Part shown: positions 22,343 through 30,564 of the stretch, piece by piece
Layout of the letters: each line of letters starts with the position of its first letter
Position numbering within the stretch: position 1 is the stretch's first letter
Assembly (NCBI GenBank): GCA_035549195.1
Contig: DASZRK010000075.1
Coordinates: 1-64,000, forward strand
Reading direction: 5' to 3'
Source of the DNA: a bacterium
GTDB lineage: Bacteria; Oederibacteriota; Muellerivitia; Muellerivitales; Muellerivitaceae
DNA length: 64,000 nt
Position numbers and translations under genes: made by a program
The notes under the pieces: model-generated
The model's database searches: none
Seen by the model: the letters and a program-made list of their open reading frames with translations, nothing else
What the model was told of the DNA's origin: nothing

Positions 22343-22357
22343 TCCGCCTTCCGCTCC

Positions 22358-22386
22358 TTGACATTCAGAAGTCGGGTCGGTATAGT
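22358..22386 (+). promoter_or_regulatory. Near-consensus sigma-70 promoter of the ilv leader
   Basis: TTGACA at 22358-22363 and TATAGT at 22381-22386 are separated by exactly 17 bp. Initiation about 7 nt downstream would give a short 5' leader before the 26-codon peptide at 22417. Confidence 0.85.
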
Positions 22387-22416
22387 CCGACCAGCAGTAA
22401 TTTCGAGGAGTTTTTC

Positions 22417-22497
22417 ATGGCCTTCGGCATCGCGACAACCTTGGTCCTTTTGTTGGTATTGGTACCGGTTTTGCGTCCGGAGGCGGTGCGCTCCTAA
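22417..22497 (+). CDS. Putative branched-chain attenuator leader peptide upstream of ilvB
   Basis: A 26-codon ORF, MAFGIATTLVLLLVLVPVLR then PEAVRS, with a good ribosome-binding site (CGAGGAG, 6-8 nt from ATG). Twelve residues are Leu, Val or Ile, and codons 9-19 contain ten of them in eleven. It follows a near-consensus promoter and precedes an intrinsic terminator and ilvB. In enterobacteria, leader peptides rich in the regulated amino acids make the ribosome stall when those aminoacyl-tRNAs are scarce and prevent termination. The same logic is inferred here. The peptide itself probably has no other role, though a tiny hydrophobic membrane peptide cannot be excluded. Confidence 0.75.
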   Translation: MAFGIATTLVLLLVLVPVLRPEAVRS

Positions 22498-22500
22498 CGA

Positions 22501-22553
22501 CGGCTACCAAGCCGCGGGGTCCCGCCCAAGGGACCGCCGCGGCTTTTTTTTTT
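22501..22553 (+). terminator. Attenuator: small competing hairpin plus intrinsic terminator before ilvB
   Basis: The terminator pairs GCCGCGGGGTCCC (22511-22523) with GGGACCGCCGCGGC (22530-22543), one bulged G, loop about 6 nt, followed by ten T. Just upstream CGGCT-ACCA-AGCCG (22501-22514) can form a hairpin that shares bases 22511-22514 with the terminator stem, so the two are mutually exclusive. It begins 4 nt after the leader-peptide stop. Confidence 0.8.
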
Positions 22554-22655
22554 AGCCAAAGCCCTCCCTTCGGCTCCCGCTCTTGATCCCGTCCGGTTTT
22601 AGGGTCTTTTCGGCGTAAAACCCGTAAATTCGGGTGCGATTTCGGCCCTGAATGA

Positions 22656-22684
22656 TGAACAAACCCAGGAAATTATTGTAAAAT
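22656..22684 (+). promoter_or_regulatory. Possible second promoter directly upstream of ilvB
   Basis: TGAACA (22656-22661) and TAAAAT (22679-22684) are 17 bp apart. This would start transcription downstream of the attenuator and give a basal, unattenuated ilvB message. Motif matches are partial. Apart from this, 22554-22733 shows only the AAGGAG ribosome-binding site before ilvB. Confidence 0.35.
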
Positions 22685-22733
22685 CGAGCCCTTTCACGCT
22701 TGCCGGGGTTGGGGCATTTTTAAGGAGAAAACG

Positions 22734-24497
22734 ATGGCGAAACAAAAGACGAAGCTCAAAAAAGGCGCCGAAATGGTGGTGGATGTCCTCTTAAGCGAGG
22801 GCGTGGACATCTGCTGGGGCGTCACGGGCGGGGCGATCCTGCCGGTCTATGACGCCATCTACCTGAACCGGGATAAGATCCGCCTCATCGATACCCGTCA
22901 CGAGCAAGGCGCGGTCCATATGGCCGAGGGCTACGCCAAGTCGACCGGCAAGGTCGGTGTCTGTGTGGTCACCTCCGGCCCCGGCGCCACCAACATCGTC
23001 ACTGGTCTCGCCGACGCCTATATGGACTCGGTCCCCCTGGTCGCCATCACGGGCCAGGTCCCGACCTCCCTCATCGGCACCGACGGGTTCCAGGAAGCCG
23101 ACGTGGTCGGCATCACCCGCTCCTGCACCAAGCACAACTACCTGGTGAAGAACATCCAGGAATTGCCCCAGATCATGCGGGACGCCTTCTTCATCGCCCG
23201 CTCGGGCCGTCCCGGGCCGGTTCTGGTCGACATCCCCAAGGACATCGCCGCCGCCTCGGCGGAGGTGGAGATCCCGTTGAAGCCTTCCATCCCTCTCTCC
23301 AAGTTCGTGCCCGAACCGGACATGAACGAATTGGATAAGATCGCCGAGCTCTTGAAGGCCGCCAAGCGTCCTCTCATTTACGCCGGGGGCGGCGTCATCA
23401 ACGCCGGGGCTTCGGAGGACCTCTACAAGTTCGCCCGCAAGACGAACGTGCCTGTCACCCTGACCCTGATGGGCCTGGGGGCCTATCCGGCCACCGACCG
23501 GCAATTCATCGACATGCTGGGCATGCACGGGTCCTACCGGGCCAACATGGCCCTGACCCATTGCGATTTCCTGCTGGCCATCGGTAGCCGTTTCGACGAC
23601 CGGGTGACGGGGAAGCTCAGCGAGTTCTCCCCGCATTCGAAAAAGGCCCATATCGACGTGGACCCCACCTCCATCGGGAAGAACGTGAAGGTGGACGCCC
23701 ATGTTCTGGGCGACATGCGTTCCATCCTCAAGGAACTGACCAAACGGGCCGGGACCAAGGACTATGACGAGTGGTATGACCAACTGGATTCCTGGAACAC
23801 CAAGCATCCGCTCGCGTACAAACAGGACCCCAAAGGGGTCGTGCTGCCCCAATTCGCCATCGACGAGATCTACCGCATCACCAAGGGCGACGCCTATGTG
23901 GCCACCGAGGTCGGACAGCACCAGATGTGGGCCGCCCAGTATTACAAGTTCAATAAACCCCGTCGTTGGCTGACCTCGGGGGGCTTGGGCACCATGGGGT
24001 TCGGGTTCCCGGCCGCCATTGGGGCCGCCTTCGCCCACCCCAACGCGACGGTCGTCGACATCGCGGGGGACGGCAGCTTCCAGATGACCCTGCAGGAACT
24101 GGCCATCGTGAAGCAGTACAACCTCAATGTGAAGACCATCATCATCAACAACAAGTTCATGGGCATGGTCAAGCAATGGCAGGACCTGTTCTTCGACAAG
24201 CGCTACGCGGCCACCTCGATCCCCGCCCAGCCGGACTTCGTGAAGCTGGCGGACGCCTACGGCATCGCGGGCTACCGGGCGGAGAACCCGAAGGACACGA
24301 CCAAGGTCCTGGAAGAGGCCCTGACCAAGAAGGGGCCCTGCCTGGTCGACCTGGTGGTCGACGCCGAGGAGCACGTCTATCCCATGGTCCCCGCCGGAGG
24401 GGCCGTGAAGGACATCGTGCTCTCCAAGGAACACCAGAAACAGAAGGCCCTGGAAGCGGCCAAGGCCCCCAAAAAAGCCACCCAAGTCCATCTTTAA
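22734..24497 (+). CDS. ilvB: Acetolactate synthase, large (catalytic) subunit
   Basis: A 587-residue ThDP enzyme that condenses two pyruvates (or pyruvate and 2-ketobutyrate), the first committed step to Val, Leu and Ile. N-terminal Pyr domain with the catalytic-Glu motif RHEQGAVHMAEGYAK, central FAD/domain III, and C-terminal PP domain with the ThDP-metal motif GDGSFQMTLQELAIVKQYNL ending in N. AAGGAGAAAACG precedes the ATG. First structural gene of ilvB-ilvN-ilvC and, by context, under the attenuator upstream. Confidence 0.97.
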   Translation: MAKQKTKLKKGAEMVVDVLLSEGVDICWGVTGGAILPVYDAIYLNRDKIRLIDTRHEQGAVHMAEGYAKSTGKVGVCVVTSGPGATNIVTGLADAYMDSVPLVAITGQVPTSLIGTDGFQEADVVGITRSCTKHNYLVKNIQELPQIMRDAFFIARSGRPGPVLVDIPKDIAAASAEVEIPLKPSIPLSKFVPEPDMNELDKIAELLKAAKRPLIYAGGGVINAGASEDLYKFARKTNVPVTLTLMGLGAYPATDRQFIDMLGMHGSYRANMALTHCDFLLAIGSRFDDRVTGKLSEFSPHSKKAHIDVDPTSIGKNVKVDAHVLGDMRSILKELTKRAGTKDYDEWYDQLDSWNTKHPLAYKQDPKGVVLPQFAIDEIYRITKGDAYVATEVGQHQMWAAQYYKFNKPRRWLTSGGLGTMGFGFPAAIGAAFAHPNATVVDIAGDGSFQMTLQELAIVKQYNLNVKTIIINNKFMGMVKQWQDLFFDKRYAATSIPAQPDFVKLADAYGIAGYRAENPKDTTKVLEEALTKKGPCLVDLVVDAEEHVYPMVPAGGAVKDIVLSKEHQKQKALEAAKAPKKATQVHL

Positions 24498-24519: not shown

Positions 24520-25062
24520 ATGCGTCACACCATTTCCGTCCTCGTGAACAACCACGCGGGGGTCCTGTCCCGCGTCTCGAACCTTTTCTCGGCCCGGGGC
24601 TACAACATCGACAGTCTGGTGGTCGGGATCACCGATGACCCGAAGGTCTCCCGCATGACCATCGTGGTCAAGGGGGATGAGAGGATCATCGACCAGGTGG
24701 AAAAGCAGCTCAACAAGCTCATCGACGTCATCAAGGTCATCGACCTGACCAACGATGATTTCATCGGGCGGGACCTGGCCCTCATCAAGGTCAAGGCCGA
24801 GGCCCATAACCGAAGCCAGGTCATGGAGATCGCCCAGTGCTTCGACGGAAAGATCGTGGACGTGGGGGCGAAGAGCTTCATCATCGAAGTGACGGGCAAG
24901 GAGAGCAAGATCAACGCCATGGTCGAGCTCCTGAAGAATTACGGCATCCTGGAGATGGTGCGCACCGGCGAGGTGGCCATTTCCCGGGGCAAGAAGGTGC
25001 TGGAGGAAGAGGAAGCCAAGGTGAAGGTGAAGGCCGGCAAGGCCGGACAGTCGAACCTTTGA
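24520..25062 (+). CDS. ilvN: Acetolactate synthase, small (regulatory) subunit
   Basis: A 180-residue ACT-domain subunit that stimulates IlvB and confers feedback inhibition, typically by valine. The N-terminal ACT domain is clear (HTISVLVNNHAGVLSRVSNL then FSARGYNIDSLVVG), followed by the C-terminal domain with VDVGAKSFIIEVTG. The last ~25 residues are Lys/Glu-rich. Lies 22 bp after ilvB. Confidence 0.96.
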   Translation: MRHTISVLVNNHAGVLSRVSNLFSARGYNIDSLVVGITDDPKVSRMTIVVKGDERIIDQVEKQLNKLIDVIKVIDLTNDDFIGRDLALIKVKAEAHNRSQVMEIAQCFDGKIVDVGAKSFIIEVTGKESKINAMVELLKNYGILEMVRTGEVAISRGKKVLEEEEAKVKVKAGKAGQSNL

Positions 25063-25065
25063 CCT

Positions 25066-25102
25066 CAATTTTTGATTCTTAATCCTGAATTCTTAATTCA
25101 GG
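25066..25102. repeat. AT-rich intergenic repeat, copy A (ilvN-ilvC)
   Basis: CAATTTTTGATTCTTA (25066-25081) recurs exactly at 43906-43921. It is followed by a hairpin CCTGAATT-CTT-AATTCAGG (25084-25102). Copies B and C lie before ubiE and queF. Confidence 0.55.
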
Positions 25103-25125
25103 ACCTAAAAACCAAGGAGAAGGAA

Positions 25126-26118
25126 ATGCCTAAGATCCACTACGAGCAAGACGCCGATATCAACGCCCTCAAGGGGAAGACCCTGGCGGTGCTGGGTTAC
25201 GGCAACCAAGGCCGCAACCAGGCCCTGAACCTCAAGGATTCGGGGATCAAGGTCATCATCGGGGCCCGCAGCGAGAAGACCAAGGCCCAGGCCAAGGCCG
25301 ACGGGTTCGAGGCCTATGACTCCAAGGAAGCGGCGGCCAAGGCCGACATCATCCAGATCCTCATCCAGGACGACCTGCAGGGCGCCCTTTACCGCAACGA
25401 CGTGTTGCCGTCCTTGAAGGCCGGCAAGGCCCTCATGTTCTCCCACGGGTTCAACATCCATTTCGGCCAGATCGTGCCGCCCGCGGACGTGGACGTGTTC
25501 ATGATCGCCCCCAAGGGTCCGGGCCACCTGGTGCGCACCACCTATGTGGACGGCAAGGGCGTCCCGGCGCTCGTCGCCATCCACCAGAACGCCACCGGCA
25601 ACGCCATGAAGCTGGCGCTCGCCTACGCCAAGGCCATCGGCGCCACCCGCGCCGGTGTGTTGGAGACCACCTTCAAGGAAGAGACCGAGACCGACCTCTT
25701 CGGCGAGCAAGTGGTGCTCTGCGGCGGCCTTTCGGAGCTCATCCGCGCCGGGTTCGACACCCTGGTCTCCGCGGGCTACCAGCCCGAAGTGGCCTATTTC
25801 GAGTGCCTGCATGAGGTGAAACTGATCGTGGACCTGATCTACGAAAAGGGCATCACCGGCATGCGGGACGCCATTTCCACCACCGCCAAGTACGGGGACA
25901 TCAGCCGGGGACGCCGCATCATCACCGAGAACACCCGTGGCGAGATGCGACGCATCCTCTCCGAGATCCAGACGGGCATGTTCGCCCGCGAGTTCGTGCT
26001 GGAGAACCAGGCCAACCGGCCGGTCTATAACTCGGTGCTGAAGCTCGATTCCGAGCACTTGATCGAGAAGGTCGGGGTGCAGGTGCGCAGCATGTTCAGC
26101 TGGATGAAGAAAAAGTAA
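25126..26118 (+). CDS. ilvC: Ketol-acid reductoisomerase (NADP+), class I
   Basis: A 330-residue enzyme that isomerises and reduces acetolactate/acetohydroxybutyrate in Val/Ile synthesis. Rossmann motif GYGNQG at residues 24-29; the knotted C-terminal domain has the Mg-binding acidic residues in [17 protein letters not shown] and the [14 protein letters not shown] segment. ATG 25126 was preferred (AAGGAGAAGGAA upstream) over a longer frame that would translate the AT-rich repeat. Confidence 0.97.
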
Positions 26119-26126
26119 AAGTTCAA

Positions 26127-26225
26127 ACCACAGAGGGCACGGAGGGCACAGAGAAGGATCGAAAAAGAGAAAAAAGGCCTTTTAAAGGGTCCGGGTTTCT
26201 CTGCGATCTCTGTGTCCTCTGTGGT
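26127..26225. repeat. 99-bp imperfect inverted repeat between ilvC and psd
   Basis: The two ends are inverted copies: ACCACAGAGGGCACGGAGGG on the left matches the reverse complement of the right end, ACCACAGAGGACACAGAGAT. Over 29 bp the arms agree at 24 positions by my count. The centre is purine-rich and then pyrimidine-rich. The right arm ends 15 bp before the psd start. Similar CCACAGAGG-type intergenic palindromes are known from several bacterial genomes; it is probably a non-coding mobile or processed repeat. Confidence 0.75.
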
Positions 26226-26240
26226 CAGAGGGGTGCTGCC

Positions 26241-26921
26241 GTGAGACTGCCGTTCATGCCGGAAACCTGGAGCATGTTCCTGCCCGTGTTCATCACGGGT
26301 TGGGTCCTGCTGCTGGCCGGCTCCCACTGGGGCTACTGGTTCCTGGCCCTTTTCGGGGTGGCGGTCCTGGTCGTCTCCTTCCTCATCCTGAACTTCTTCC
26401 GGGATTTTGAGCGGGCCCCTGGGCGGGCGCTCAAGCCCCGCCAGGTGATCAGCCCGGCCGACGGGAAGGTCGTGGTCATCCGGACCGTCACCGAGAAGTT
26501 CCACCTCAAGAAACCCAGCGTCCAGGTCGCCATCTTCATGAACCCGCTGAACAACCACGTCCAGCGGGCGCCCTTCGACGGCAAGGTGGTGAAGAAGGTC
26601 TATCACAAGGGCGAGTTCATGGCCGCCTATGAGGACAAGGCCGACCTGGTCAATGAGCAGGCCCACCTGGTGGTGGACCTGATATCGCCCGGGCCCCGCC
26701 CGAAAAAAATGGGCCGCATGGTGCTCAAGCAGATCGCCGGGCTGGTCTGCCACCGCATCCGTACCACCCCCGGTCAGGGCGACCGCATCGAGCGGGGCAA
26801 ACGCATCGGGCGCATCCTGCTGGGCTCGCGGGTGGATGTTTTCATGCCCAAGACCTTCAAACCCGCCGTGAAGGTGGGCGACCAGGTCCTGGCCGGTGTG
26901 ACCGTCCTCGGGGAGCTTTGA
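26241..26921 (+). CDS. psd: Phosphatidylserine decarboxylase proenzyme, short form
   Basis: A 226-residue Psd that makes phosphatidylethanolamine in the inner membrane. Two N-terminal hydrophobic helices (about 13-52) precede the catalytic part with VISPADGKVV and FMNPLNNHVQRAPFDG. The self-cleavage site is GRILLGSRVDVFMP; cleavage between G195 and S196 would create the pyruvoyl group. Starts with GTG. It sits 2 bp before pssA, so the two PE-synthesis steps are in one operon. Confidence 0.94.
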   Translation: MRLPFMPETWSMFLPVFITGWVLLLAGSHWGYWFLALFGVAVLVVSFLILNFFRDFERAPGRALKPRQVISPADGKVVVIRTVTEKFHLKKPSVQVAIFMNPLNNHVQRAPFDGKVVKKVYHKGEFMAAYEDKADLVNEQAHLVVDLISPGPRPKKMGRMVLKQIAGLVCHRIRTTPGQGDRIERGKRIGRILLGSRVDVFMPKTFKPAVKVGDQVLAGVTVLGEL

Positions 26922-26922
26922 C

Positions 26923-27795
26923 ATGGCCCCTTCCCGCACGAAGAACCATCCGGCCCCGGAGGCTAAAACGTCCTCCTCGCGCTTCCGCAAGACCATCTAC
27001 CTCCTGCCGAACCTTTTCACGGCTGGCAACATGGTGTTGGGCATCCTTTCCATCGCCTATGCCATCAACGACGCACTGACCCTGTCGGTTGCGGCCGAGA
27101 CCAAGGTCGTTCCTTTCGTCTGGCCCGCGCGCTTCATCGTGATCGCGGCCTTCATGGATTTCTTCGACGGCTTCGTGGCCCGGGCCACGGGTACCACCAG
27201 CCGCTTCGGCATGGAATTCGACAGCCTCTCCGACCTAGTGAGCTTCGGCATGGCGCCGGCCATCCTGATCTACCTCTCGGTCCTCCGCTACCAGAACGGC
27301 CTGGGGCTCTCCATCACGGTGTTCTACGTGGTCTGCGCCGCCGTCCGCCTGGCCCGGTTCAACGTCCAGGCCCAGGTGGAGGAGAAGAGCCACTTCATGG
27401 GCCTCCCGAGCCCCGCCGCCGCCGGGATCCTGGCCAGCTACGTTCTTTTCTCCCGCTGGGGCGGTTGGTATGGGAAGGGCATCTTCATGAACAAGGTCAT
27501 GGGCTGGTACGAGGAGAACCTGAACCTCATCGAGTTCTGGGGCATCCCCATCCTGACCGTCATGATCGGGCTGGTGATGATCTCCACCCTCAGCTACCCG
27601 AGCCTCAAGAAATTCAAGCTCGAGACCGTCAAGCCCCTCACCCTGGTGGTGATCGTGCTGGTCATCTTCTCGCTCCTGAAGGCGGCGGAACCCACGGCTT
27701 TCGCCGTCCTGACCCTCTATTTCTTCTGGGGGCTCCTGTCCTCCCTGACCAAGAAGGGGGTTGACCGATTGCGTCGCTCCCGCTCGGCCGCTTAG
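26923..27795 (+). CDS. pssA: CDP-diacylglycerol-serine O-phosphatidyltransferase
   Basis: A 290-residue integral membrane CDP-alcohol phosphatidyltransferase making phosphatidylserine. The family motif D-G-x2-A-R-x8-G-x3-D-x3-D is complete at about residues 82-104 (DGFVARATGTTSRFG then MEFDSLSD). Several hydrophobic spans follow, with basic termini. Translated directly after psd; its product is the Psd substrate. Confidence 0.94.
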   Translation: MAPSRTKNHPAPEAKTSSSRFRKTIYLLPNLFTAGNMVLGILSIAYAINDALTLSVAAETKVVPFVWPARFIVIAAFMDFFDGFVARATGTTSRFGMEFDSLSDLVSFGMAPAILIYLSVLRYQNGLGLSITVFYVVCAAVRLARFNVQAQVEEKSHFMGLPSPAAAGILASYVLFSRWGGWYGKGIFMNKVMGWYEENLNLIEFWGIPILTVMIGLVMISTLSYPSLKKFKLETVKPLTLVVIVLVIFSLLKAAEPTAFAVLTLYFFWGLLSSLTKKGVDRLRRSRSAA

Positions 27796-27849
27796 ACCCC
27801 CTTTTCACCCATTTACGGACCCATGGACCCAACCCTAAGGAGACACATC

Positions 27850-29433
27850 ATGAAGAACCAAAGAACATCCAATCCCCAGGACCGCGTTTACATCTTCGAT
27901 ACCACCCTGCGTGACGGCGAGCAGGCCCCCGGGGCCAGCCTGAACACCGAGGAAAAACTGAAGGTCGCCGCCCAACTGGAGAAACTGGGCGTGGACATCA
28001 TCGAAGCCGGTTTCCCCGCGGCCTCGCCGGGCGATTTCGACGCGGTCCAGAAGATCGCCAAACTCGTGAAGCGGACCTCGGTGGCCGGGCTCTGCCGGGC
28101 CATGCGTAAGGACATCGACACCTGCGCCAAGGCCCTGAAACCGGCCAAGAAACCCCGTATCCACGTCTTCATCTCCTCCTCCGACATCCACCTGCAATAC
28201 ATCTTCCGCAAGACCAAGGAAGAGGCGGTCGAGGCGGCGGTGGACGCGGTGAAATATGCCCGCAAGTTCTCCGATGACGTGGAATTCTCGGCCCAGGACG
28301 CCTCCCGGTCCGACGTGGACTATCTCTGCCGCATGACGGAAGCCGTCATCAAGGCCGGGGCCACGACGGTGAACCTGCCGGACACCGTGGGATACGCCGT
28401 GCCCGACGAATACGGACGCATGATCGCCTCCATCCGCCAAAGGGTGCCCAACATCGGCAAGACCATCCTGTCGGTCCATTGCCACAACGACCTGGGCCTG
28501 GCGGTGGCCAACTCGGTGGCCGCCATCCAGAACGGGGCCCGGCAGGTGGAATGCACCATCAACGGCATTGGGGAGAGGGCGGGGAACGCCAGCCTGGAGG
28601 AGATCGTCATGATCCTCAAGACCCGTTCCGACAAGTACCCCTTCTTCACCGGGGTGAACACCCGGGAGATCTACAAGACCAGCCGCCTGGTCTCCACCCT
28701 CACCGGGTTCCCCATCCAGCCCAACAAGGCCATCGTGGGCAACAACGCCTTCGCCCATGAGAGCGGCATCCACCAGGACGGCATGCTCAAGTACCGCCAG
28801 ACCTACGAGATCATGACGCCCCAGGAGATCGGGGTGCCGGAGAGCCGTTTGGTCATGGGCAAGCACTCGGGCCGACACGCCTTCAAGAAGCGCCTGGAGG
28901 ACCTGGGCTATGGGGTGAAGCCGGAGGAATTGGACAATCTCTTCGCCAAGTTCAAGGACCTGGCCGACAAGAAAAAGAGCGTCTATGACGAGGATATCGA
29001 GGCCCTGATCGAGGAAAAGATCGCGGCTTCCAGCGATACCTACCAGTTGACCTACCTGCATACCTCCGCCGGGACCACGACGCTCCCGACGGCCACCTTG
29101 AAGCTCAAGAAGGGCGACCAGGAGACCCAGGAAGCGGCGACCGGCGACGGGCCGGTGGACGCGGTCTTCAATGCCATCGACCGGGCGACCGGGTTCAAGG
29201 GCAAGTTGGAGAACTACACCTTGAAGGCCCTCACCCAGGGGCGGGATGCCCAGGGCGAGGTGACGGTCACCGTCACCACCAACGGGGACGAGGCCCATGG
29301 ACGGGGCGTCTCCACCGACGTCATCGAGGCTTCGGCCAAGGCCTATTTGAACGGGGTCAACAAGCTCTTGTTGAAGCACGTCAAAAAGAGCGCCAAGGCC
29401 GCTTTTGAGGCGATGAAGGGTTTGAAGCTTTAG
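27850..29433 (+). CDS. leuA: 2-isopropylmalate synthase
   Basis: A 527-residue LeuA committing 2-ketoisovalerate to leucine. The TIM barrel begins with [17 protein letters not shown] (metal-binding Asp and Arg), and [18 protein letters not shown] supplies the two metal-binding His. The C-terminal domain (after about residue 400) is the leucine-feedback regulatory fold, so the enzyme is probably inhibited by leucine. ATG 27850 is supported by CTAAGGAGACACATC; a frame from 27823 adds nine residues without family support. Confidence 0.95.
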
Positions 29434-29445
29434 TCGGTTTTTCGC

Positions 29446-29471
29446 GCCGGCCGGGGAAAGCCCCGGCCGGC
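29446..29471. terminator. GC-rich hairpin between leuA and leuB
   Basis: A perfect 11-bp stem GCCGGCCGGGG / CCCCGGCCGGC with AAAG loop, followed by ATTCTTTT. The T-run is short, so it may be a partial terminator or an RNA-stability element that uncouples leuA from leuB. Confidence 0.55.
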
Positions 29472-29493
29472 ATTCTTTTCCCAAGAGGTTCCC

Positions 29494-30564
29494 ATGAATT
29501 TTCACATCGTCGTATTGGCCGGGGATGGTATCGGTCCCGAGATCTGCGAGGAATCCAAGAAGGTCCTCGACCGCATCGGGGAGATCTTCGGACATCAATT
29601 CGAATACGAGGCTCAGGACGCGGGCGGGATCGCCATCGACAAGTTCGACACCCCCCTGCCGGACCATACCCTGAAGGCCTGCTTGAACGCCCAGGCTGTC
29701 CTCAAAGCCCCCATGGGCGGGCCCAAGTGGGACAAGATGGAGAACAAGAAGCGCCCCGAGGCGGGCATTTTGGGCCTGCGCAAAGGGTTGGACCTTTACG
29801 CGAACCTCCGGCCGGTCAAGCTCTTCAACGCGCTGAAGGACGCGTCCACCCTGAAGCCCGAGGTCATCGACGGGGTGGACATGCTGATCGTCCGGGAACT
29901 CATCTCGGGCATCTATTTCGGCGAACCCCGGGGCATCCACGGGGAAGGGAAGGACCGCTATGGGGTCAACACCGAGATCTACCGCGCCCCTGAGGTCGAG
30001 CGCATCGTGGGGCTGGCCTGCGACCTGGCCCGCCTGAGGCGCAAGAAGGTGACCAGCGTGGACAAGTTCAACGTGCTGGAATCCTCCCGGCTCTGGCACG
30101 ACGTGGCCGAGGAGGTTTCCCATCGATACCAGGACATCACCTTCGAGCACCAGATCGTGGACAACGCCGCCATGCAACTCATCCTCAAACCCAAGTCCTT
30201 TGACGTGATGGTGACCACCAATATGTTCGGGGACATCCTCTCCGACGAGGCCTCCATGTTGACCGGGTCTCTGGGGATGCTGCCGTCCGCTTCCATCGGC
30301 GGCCAGGTGGCCCTTTATGAACCCTCCCATGGATCGGCCCCGGATATCGCGGGGACGGGCAAGGCCAATCCGCTGGCCATGATCCTCTCCACCGCCATGA
30401 TGCTCCAATACAGCTTCAAGCTCTTGAAGGAAGCCGAAGCGGTGGAAAAAGCGGTGGAACGGGTGCTGGATTCGGGTCTTCGGACCGCCGATTTGGCCCA
30501 GAAGGGCGGGAAGGTGATAACCTGCCGGGAGATGGGAGAAGCCGTCATCCGGGAGCTGAAGTGA
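29494..30564 (+). CDS. leuB: 3-isopropylmalate dehydrogenase
   Basis: A 356-residue NAD-dependent beta-decarboxylating dehydrogenase. LAGDGIGPEICEE marks the N terminus, ISGIYFGEPRGIHGEGKDRYGVNTEIY contains the substrate-binding region, and NMFGDILSDEASMLTGSLGMLPSAS the metal-binding Asp residues. GSAPDIAGTGKANP forms the adenine-binding loop. AAGAGGTTCCC precedes ATG. leuC/leuD are not in the window. Confidence 0.95.
   Translation: MNFHIVVLAGDGIGPEICEESKKVLDRIGEIFGHQFEYEAQDAGGIAIDKFDTPLPDHTLKACLNAQAVLKAPMGGPKWDKMENKKRPEAGILGLRKGLDLYANLRPVKLFNALKDASTLKPEVIDGVDMLIVRELISGIYFGEPRGIHGEGKDRYGVNTEIYRAPEVERIVGLACDLARLRRKKVTSVDKFNVLESSRLWHDVAEEVSHRYQDITFEHQIVDNAAMQLILKPKSFDVMVTTNMFGDILSDEASMLTGSLGMLPSASIGGQVALYEPSHGSAPDIAGTGKANPLAMILSTAMMLQYSFKLLKEAEAVEKAVERVLDSGLRTADLAQKGGKVITCREMGEAVIRELK

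Follow-up and report, generated by a model that had tools for sequence, protein, structure and literature searches.

A predicted Leu/Val leader-peptide attenuator upstream of ilvB in candidate division FCPU426

The ilvB gene of a bacterium whose relatives fall in candidate division FCPU426 is very probably controlled by a cis-acting leader-peptide transcription attenuator of the trp/ivbL type. This element would sense charged tRNA-Val and tRNA-Leu and would control ilvB and probably ilvN, ilvC, leuA and leuB. An earlier note on this DNA had read the region as a transcription attenuator, and that reading is strengthened by conservation across nine genomes and by a predicted antiterminator. The evidence comprises sequence elements, the degree to which they are conserved and the alternative pairings that folding predicts; from these we infer the transcription start, stalling of the ribosome, termination and a response to Leu and Val. 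Coordinates refer to the window, the whole stretch of 64,000 nucleotides that was analyzed, and all features of the element and its operon lie on the plus strand.

The leader, its flanking signals and their conservation

A putative promoter (P1, 22358–22386) directly precedes the leader. It is composed of TTGACA (22358–22363), a spacer of 17 nt and TATAGT (22381–22386), matching the consensus at 11 of 12 positions, and each of the nine genomes compared has a promoter of the TTGACA/TAt type ahead of the leader. Transcription is predicted to begin near 22393. The Shine–Dalgarno sequence GAGGAG (22405–22410), six bases 5' of the ATG at 22417, is complementary to CTCC near the end of the leader. 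The ORF itself (22417–22497) has 26 codons, encoding MAFGIATTLVLLLVLVPVLRPEAVRS, with orthologues in all eight relatives. Codons 9–19 (22441–22473; L V L L L V L V P V L) specify Leu or Val at 10 of 11 positions, with the genome-rare GTA among them. Across all six frames, the 64-kb window has a single run in which 10 or more of 11 codons are Leu/Val; 20 Markov-simulated windows have none. The promoter, the 26-codon leader with its strong ribosome-binding site, and the Leu/Val run are all correct as the earlier note had placed them. Judged by its letters, the element contains a short ORF that has a start codon and a ribosome-binding site and is rich in codons for the products of the operon. It is present in one copy per genome, always before ilvB, and was never seen elsewhere.

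Between the leader and ilvB, the first structural gene, lies an intrinsic terminator (22509–22553) with a 15-base 5' arm (22509–22523), a loop (22524–22529), a 3' arm (22530–22545) and ten T residues (22544–22553). Terminators occupy this position in 9/9 genomes, and the GC-rich stem (22509–22545) followed by ten T that had been described ahead of ilvB is borne out. A simple terminator scan left 22509–22545 unflagged; the structure is visible in the fold of the 168-nt leader (-78.3 kcal/mol, z = -4.8 versus shuffles). The short transcript is predicted to end near 22553.

The nine genomes are eight of family f1 (the window's own, G002 and G007 included) and G008, from a sister family. In each, promoter, leader, hairpin region, terminator and ilvB follow in the same order. 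A covariance model built from the 79 columns of the core scored 62–102 bits in all nine and gave no match in 280 other genomes, other families of the same phylum included. The gene upstream of the element differs in four of the nine (G004, G005, G007 and G008), so the element appears to travel with ilvB. Relatives lacking both the Leu/Val run and the hairpin had been named beforehand as grounds for doubt; all nine genomes keep the run, the hairpin region and the terminator. Comparison with relatives had also been proposed as a check for compensatory changes in stems. Leader residues and segments are indeed conserved, but compensation is weak, with one change on both sides of a pair.

Conservation at the end of the leader extends to its codons. 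RPEAVRS is specified by CGT CCG GAG GCG GTK CGC TCC, and six of these seven codons are identical across the eight family genomes; in the seventh (GTK, Val) only the wobble base varies, and this base falls in the loop of a predicted protector hairpin described below. For comparison, 42 of 173 codons for conserved residues of ilvB are invariant over seven genomes, in columns limited by partial ilvB sequences. The identity of the RPE-A-RS codons within the family suggests constraint at the level of RNA. In the Leu/Val run, GTA makes up 25 of 35 Val codons over the nine genomes, compared with about 3% in eleven genes of the window, and CTG is avoided; because the nine genomes share kinship, these counts are not independent. 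Within the family, two GTA positions and one TTG position of the run never vary. The use of rare codons at control positions is in keeping with a sensor of starvation.

Could the ORF instead encode a functional small hydrophobic membrane protein, equipped with its own promoter and terminator and standing before ilvB by a coincidence of conserved gene order? The peptide is hydrophobic, with both ends conserved in the family (MAFGIA..., ...RPEAVRS), and it shows a sub-threshold resemblance to CcmD of Pfam (E 0.14). Yet its C-terminal codons are conserved at the nucleotide level, beyond what the peptide would show, and its middle exchanges L, V, A, G, P and Q while retaining rare GTA codons. Moreover, the coding end is predicted to pair with the terminator arm in nine genomes, and the single copy is always at ilvB. 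We consider a membrane protein very unlikely and an attenuator the better reading.

The leader was also tried as a member of a known RNA or peptide family, and this was rejected. Rfam covariance models (Leu_leader, Thr_leader, T-box and others) gave no match in the window at gathering score and chance-level matches only at E<=5 in 22350–22740, and the leader stayed below the cut-offs of the Pfam and NCBIfam leader-peptide profiles. PEAVRS as a cross-phylum motif was likewise rejected: among at least 120 stretches with the exact pattern, the loci examined that had a Leu/Val-rich short ORF ending nearby were the known relatives only. Scans for short ORFs and terminators, about 1.5 kb each side, turned up no convincing repeated leader at the his, trp/chorismate and homoserine dehydrogenase genes of the family.

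Alternative pairings and ribosome position

The earlier note had seen no long antiterminator and took a small hairpin, CGGCT-ACCA-AGCCG, to be the only candidate. This hairpin is located at 22501–22514 and overlaps the 5' arm of the terminator, but a longer antiterminator was found that encloses it. Three segments are involved. Segment 1, the protector GGAG (22479–22482), starts six bases past the last Leu codon and pairs with CTCC at 22491–22494. Segment 2, GCTCC (22490–22494), lies in the last two codons of the leader (Arg-Ser); like segment 1, it is invariant in the nine genomes. Segment 3, GGGGT (22516–22520), is part of the terminator stem and reads GGGGC, GGAGT or GGAGC in relatives. In the pairing model, segments 2 and 3 form the 5' and 3' sides of the antiterminator, which has five outer and five inner pairs and is predicted in 9/9 genomes. 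The 2:3 pairing survives the change to GGAGT in G006 and to GGAGC in G008. The inner hairpin is found in the eight f1 genomes; in G005 its stem is CGGCA/TGCCG, with the closing pair changed on both sides, and G008 has only a weaker, different hairpin at this place.

When the RNA made before the 3' arm of the terminator was folded, the antiterminator was the common fold in nearly all genomes, with a near variant as the minimum-energy fold in G007 and G002. In the minimum-energy fold of the window's whole leader, the Shine–Dalgarno sequence GAGGAG takes up segment 2. In most single genomes the antiterminator was not better than in shuffled sequence, and covariation of the segment pair in alignment A3 (nine sequences) was not above that of column shuffles (one both-sides change; 114/500). 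Since neither test was significant, support comes from conservation and position across genomes: 94% of cells in A3 are paired, as against 33–58% when the partner is shifted by one to three columns.

Ribosome position was modeled by placing the A site at each codon in turn and removing the RNA that the ribosome would cover (13 bases 3' of the start of the A site); pair probabilities were then computed up to just beyond segment 3. Without a ribosome, the probability of the 2:3 pairing did not exceed 0.04 in any of the eight family genomes and was 0.53 in G008. When the A site occupied either of the run's final two positions, it was 0.80–0.99 in the family and about 0.5–0.7 in G008. A ribosome beyond the second codon after the run, including one at the stop codon, covered segment 2 in the model. 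For the window's leader, the protector hairpin was favored with the A site at codons 16–17, so its Leu/Val codons would not all be equally effective. Folding with a ribosome on the control codons had been proposed as a check; by this model the antiterminator opens at the last Val/Leu codons, though not at codons 16–17 of the window's leader. Folding thus predicts an antiterminator that excludes the terminator, is freed by stalling at control codons and is blocked by a ribosome at the stop codon.

The proposed mechanism would run as follows. Transcription would begin near 22393, and the leader would be translated at once. With sufficient Leu and Val, the ribosome would reach the stop codon and cover GCTCC together with the beginning of the inner hairpin, allowing the terminator to form. 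When Leu or Val is short, the ribosome would stall at the last Val/Leu codons and cover GGAG. GCTCC could then pair with GGGGT around the inner CGGCT hairpin, sequestering the 5' arm of the terminator and permitting read-through into ilvB. Without translation, the Shine–Dalgarno region or GGAG would capture GCTCC, making the terminator the default in most genomes.

The model bears as well on a different signal, in which the leader senses general translation, or RPEAVRS arrests the ribosome in response to a small molecule or the nascent chain, with no role for Leu/Val-tRNA charging. The peptide sequence RPEAVRS is itself invariant, and in the model a ribosome stalled on Arg20 or Pro21 would likewise expose segment 2. 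But the RNA segments already account for invariance at the codon level, and the operon makes Leu and Val. G008, moreover, has RNPEAVRSN: the preceding context is altered while the run stays Leu/Val. We give this explanation hardly any credence next to attenuation by tRNA charging.

The ilvB operon and a possible second promoter

The regulated gene, ilvB (22734–24497), encodes the large subunit of acetolactate synthase (TIGR00118). Downstream on the same strand are ilvN, ilvC, psd, pssA, leuA and leuB (24520–30564). With ilvB, ilvN, ilvC, leuA and leuB identified, this is a biosynthetic operon for the amino acids that the leader is proposed to sense. Genes of phosphatidylserine decarboxylase and pssA type stand within the ilv-leu row at 26241–27795, a position that would put phospholipid synthesis under the same attenuator as the ilv-leu genes. 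Between leuA and leuB (29446–29471) there is a perfect 11-pair GC hairpin, GCCGGCCGGGG-AAAG-CCCCGGCCGGC, with a T-rich tail; by its sequence, it may attenuate leuB.

The region between the terminator and ilvB contains a further conserved feature. Seven of the eight family genomes carry here a 20-base block, TTGTAAAATCTGGGTCTTTC, with close matches at this place only. The window keeps just TTGTAAAAT of this block (22676–22695), a possible second promoter with a weak promoter match (9/12 at 22656–22684). In the family, the conserved block with TGTAAAAT lies 40–60 bases 5' of ilvB, and its TAAAAT box is conserved. The block probably serves as a second promoter or as the site of a regulator. In the former case some ilvB expression would bypass the attenuator, and the TAAAAT box may in this way make control by the attenuator partial.

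These same features could be taken further: the terminator would end an upstream transcript, ilvB would be served by its own promoter (the TTGTAAAAT box near 22676–22684), and the leader would have no regulatory role. The TGTAAAAT block and the 9/12 match are what such a scheme would draw on. It must contend with the strongest promoter, P1, which lies between the upstream gene and the leader, immediately ahead of the latter. G007 has its longest upstream ORF on the opposite strand, so no upstream transcript there needs an end. The scheme also leaves the Leu/Val run, the rare codons and the invariant segments unexplained, and we judge it highly improbable. An attenuator, perhaps with a second promoter behind it, remains the preferred reading.

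Known attenuators and other leaders in the phylum

In Escherichia coli, ivbL-ilvBN has a Leu/Val-rich leader before ilvB, overlapping protector, antiterminator and terminator segments, and an intrinsic terminator. The element described here shares with it, and with the trp, leu and ilvGMEDA attenuators, the leader type, the overlapping segments and the intrinsic terminator. It differs from ivbL-ilvBN in its short antiterminator with a nested hairpin, its conserved PEAVRS end and its phylum, and no sequence relation between the two appears in Pfam, NCBIfam or Rfam.

Similar systems are known from other lineages. The ilvB-II motif, or ilvBNC attenuator, of Corynebacterium, in which the switch was tested by reporters and mutations, shares the gene position, an ORF rich in branched-chain amino acid (BCAA) codons and a terminator/antiterminator switch (PMC10272879, PMC11857589). 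Its lineage is unrelated, however, and its peptide and RNA were compared with ours by description. The ilvB-OMG motif (several phyla) and the Leptospira ilvB motif are further examples from outside Proteobacteria: their leader ORFs upstream of ilvB are rich in BCAA codons, and attenuation has been proposed for them from sequence only (PMC10272879). By description, ilvB-OMG leaders are also rich in threonine, in contrast to the nearly pure Leu/Val run seen here (PMC10272879). In Staphylococcus aureus, a leucine-rich attenuator before ilvD likewise places an ilv-leu operon under a peptide of BCAA codons (PMC5794164). There the proposed antiterminator pairs with the poly-U tail and leaves the terminator stem-loop intact, whereas here the 5' arm of the terminator is taken (PMC5794164).

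The earlier note had called leader-peptide attenuation best described in proteobacteria and actinobacteria, a statement out of date since 2010 (PMC2965389, PMC5794164, PMC9723704, PMC10272879). In that year, systems beyond these two groups were described as unshown until then by a paper that itself added Firmicutes (PMC2965389). Reports or predictions of such attenuation have since come from Firmicutes (PMC2965389, PMC5794164), and it has been suggested in Bacteroidetes (Flavobacterium; PMC9723704). The note's claim of novelty for this lineage holds up, in that we found no report of leader-peptide attenuation in FCPU426 in the open-access literature. What appears new is the candidate phylum and the particular version; the principle is that of trp/ivbL-type attenuation. 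With comparative support that is unusually good, the finding would bring an uncultured candidate phylum into the range of leader-peptide attenuation. In this compact set of nine genomes, with invariant codons in segments 1 and 2 and rare GTA control codons, the mechanism can be read from sequence.

In other families of the phylum, the operon starts with ilvD, in several cases with a short gene ahead, and has other BCAA-rich leaders. In some of these a hairpin spans the stop codon, and no intrinsic terminator is obvious. Class II (families f8, f11, f13 and f14) comprises conserved leaders of 37–40 codons upstream of ilvD, such as MAKNTGFNIKSNTAIVTSTPVLPVVLLLTVLLVVVLA, with a strong ribosome-binding site (L179:3497, L180:2806, L184:3132, L185:3577, L187:4049, L188:3867, L189:4069 and L190:3654; L183 on the minus strand, offset 1177). 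The stop-spanning hairpin is CTCGCC-TAA-GGCGAG in f11 and has a relative in f13; downstream lies another hairpin with a long loop, CGGCGCAG..AACCCGGGAATCC..GCGCCG.

Class III (f4 and f12; L173–L178) has a Val-rich leader (..LVVVVVG*), ending in VVG, VLG or similar, 120–300 bases before ilvD. Its ATG lies about six bases past the -10 box, so that the ORF is apparently leaderless. The stop-spanning hairpin is GTGGGC-TAA-CGCCCAC, or in f12 GTGGGT-TAA-CACCCAC, changed on both sides, and is followed by a C-rich, G-poor tract. These sequence features make class III a candidate Rho-dependent attenuator. All class II sources, and the two class III sources that were searched, lacked a match to any Rfam leader family above gathering score.

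In G013 (f7), a short leader, MNISASAKSILTVVLLTLEVHPL, precedes ilvD and is followed by a GC-rich hairpin and a T run (L172, minus strand, offset 1977–2150). The leader end, GCACCC, can pair with GGGTGC overlapping the terminator hairpin; this is probably, from its sequence, another classic attenuator.

It is possible, though we put it forward tentatively, that the phylum around FCPU426 uses several unrelated leader-peptide architectures for BCAA synthesis: one with an intrinsic terminator and, in other families, leaders that have a stop-spanning hairpin but no evident intrinsic terminator, joined in one group by an apparently leaderless ORF and a C-rich, G-poor tract that would suit Rho. If so, the leaderless class would count as a novel form of attenuation. 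The stop-spanning-hairpin leaders at ilvD may be more novel than the ilvB attenuator. Taken with the ilvB element, these leader types suggest that attenuators of the BCAA pathway arose or were replaced repeatedly in one lineage. Between leader and ilvD, several genomes (L180, L183, L184) also carry a gene of about 263 codons (M..W..YxxNSQNQYrWGxEl..), which by eye looks methyltransferase-like and is possibly a member of the BCAA operon.
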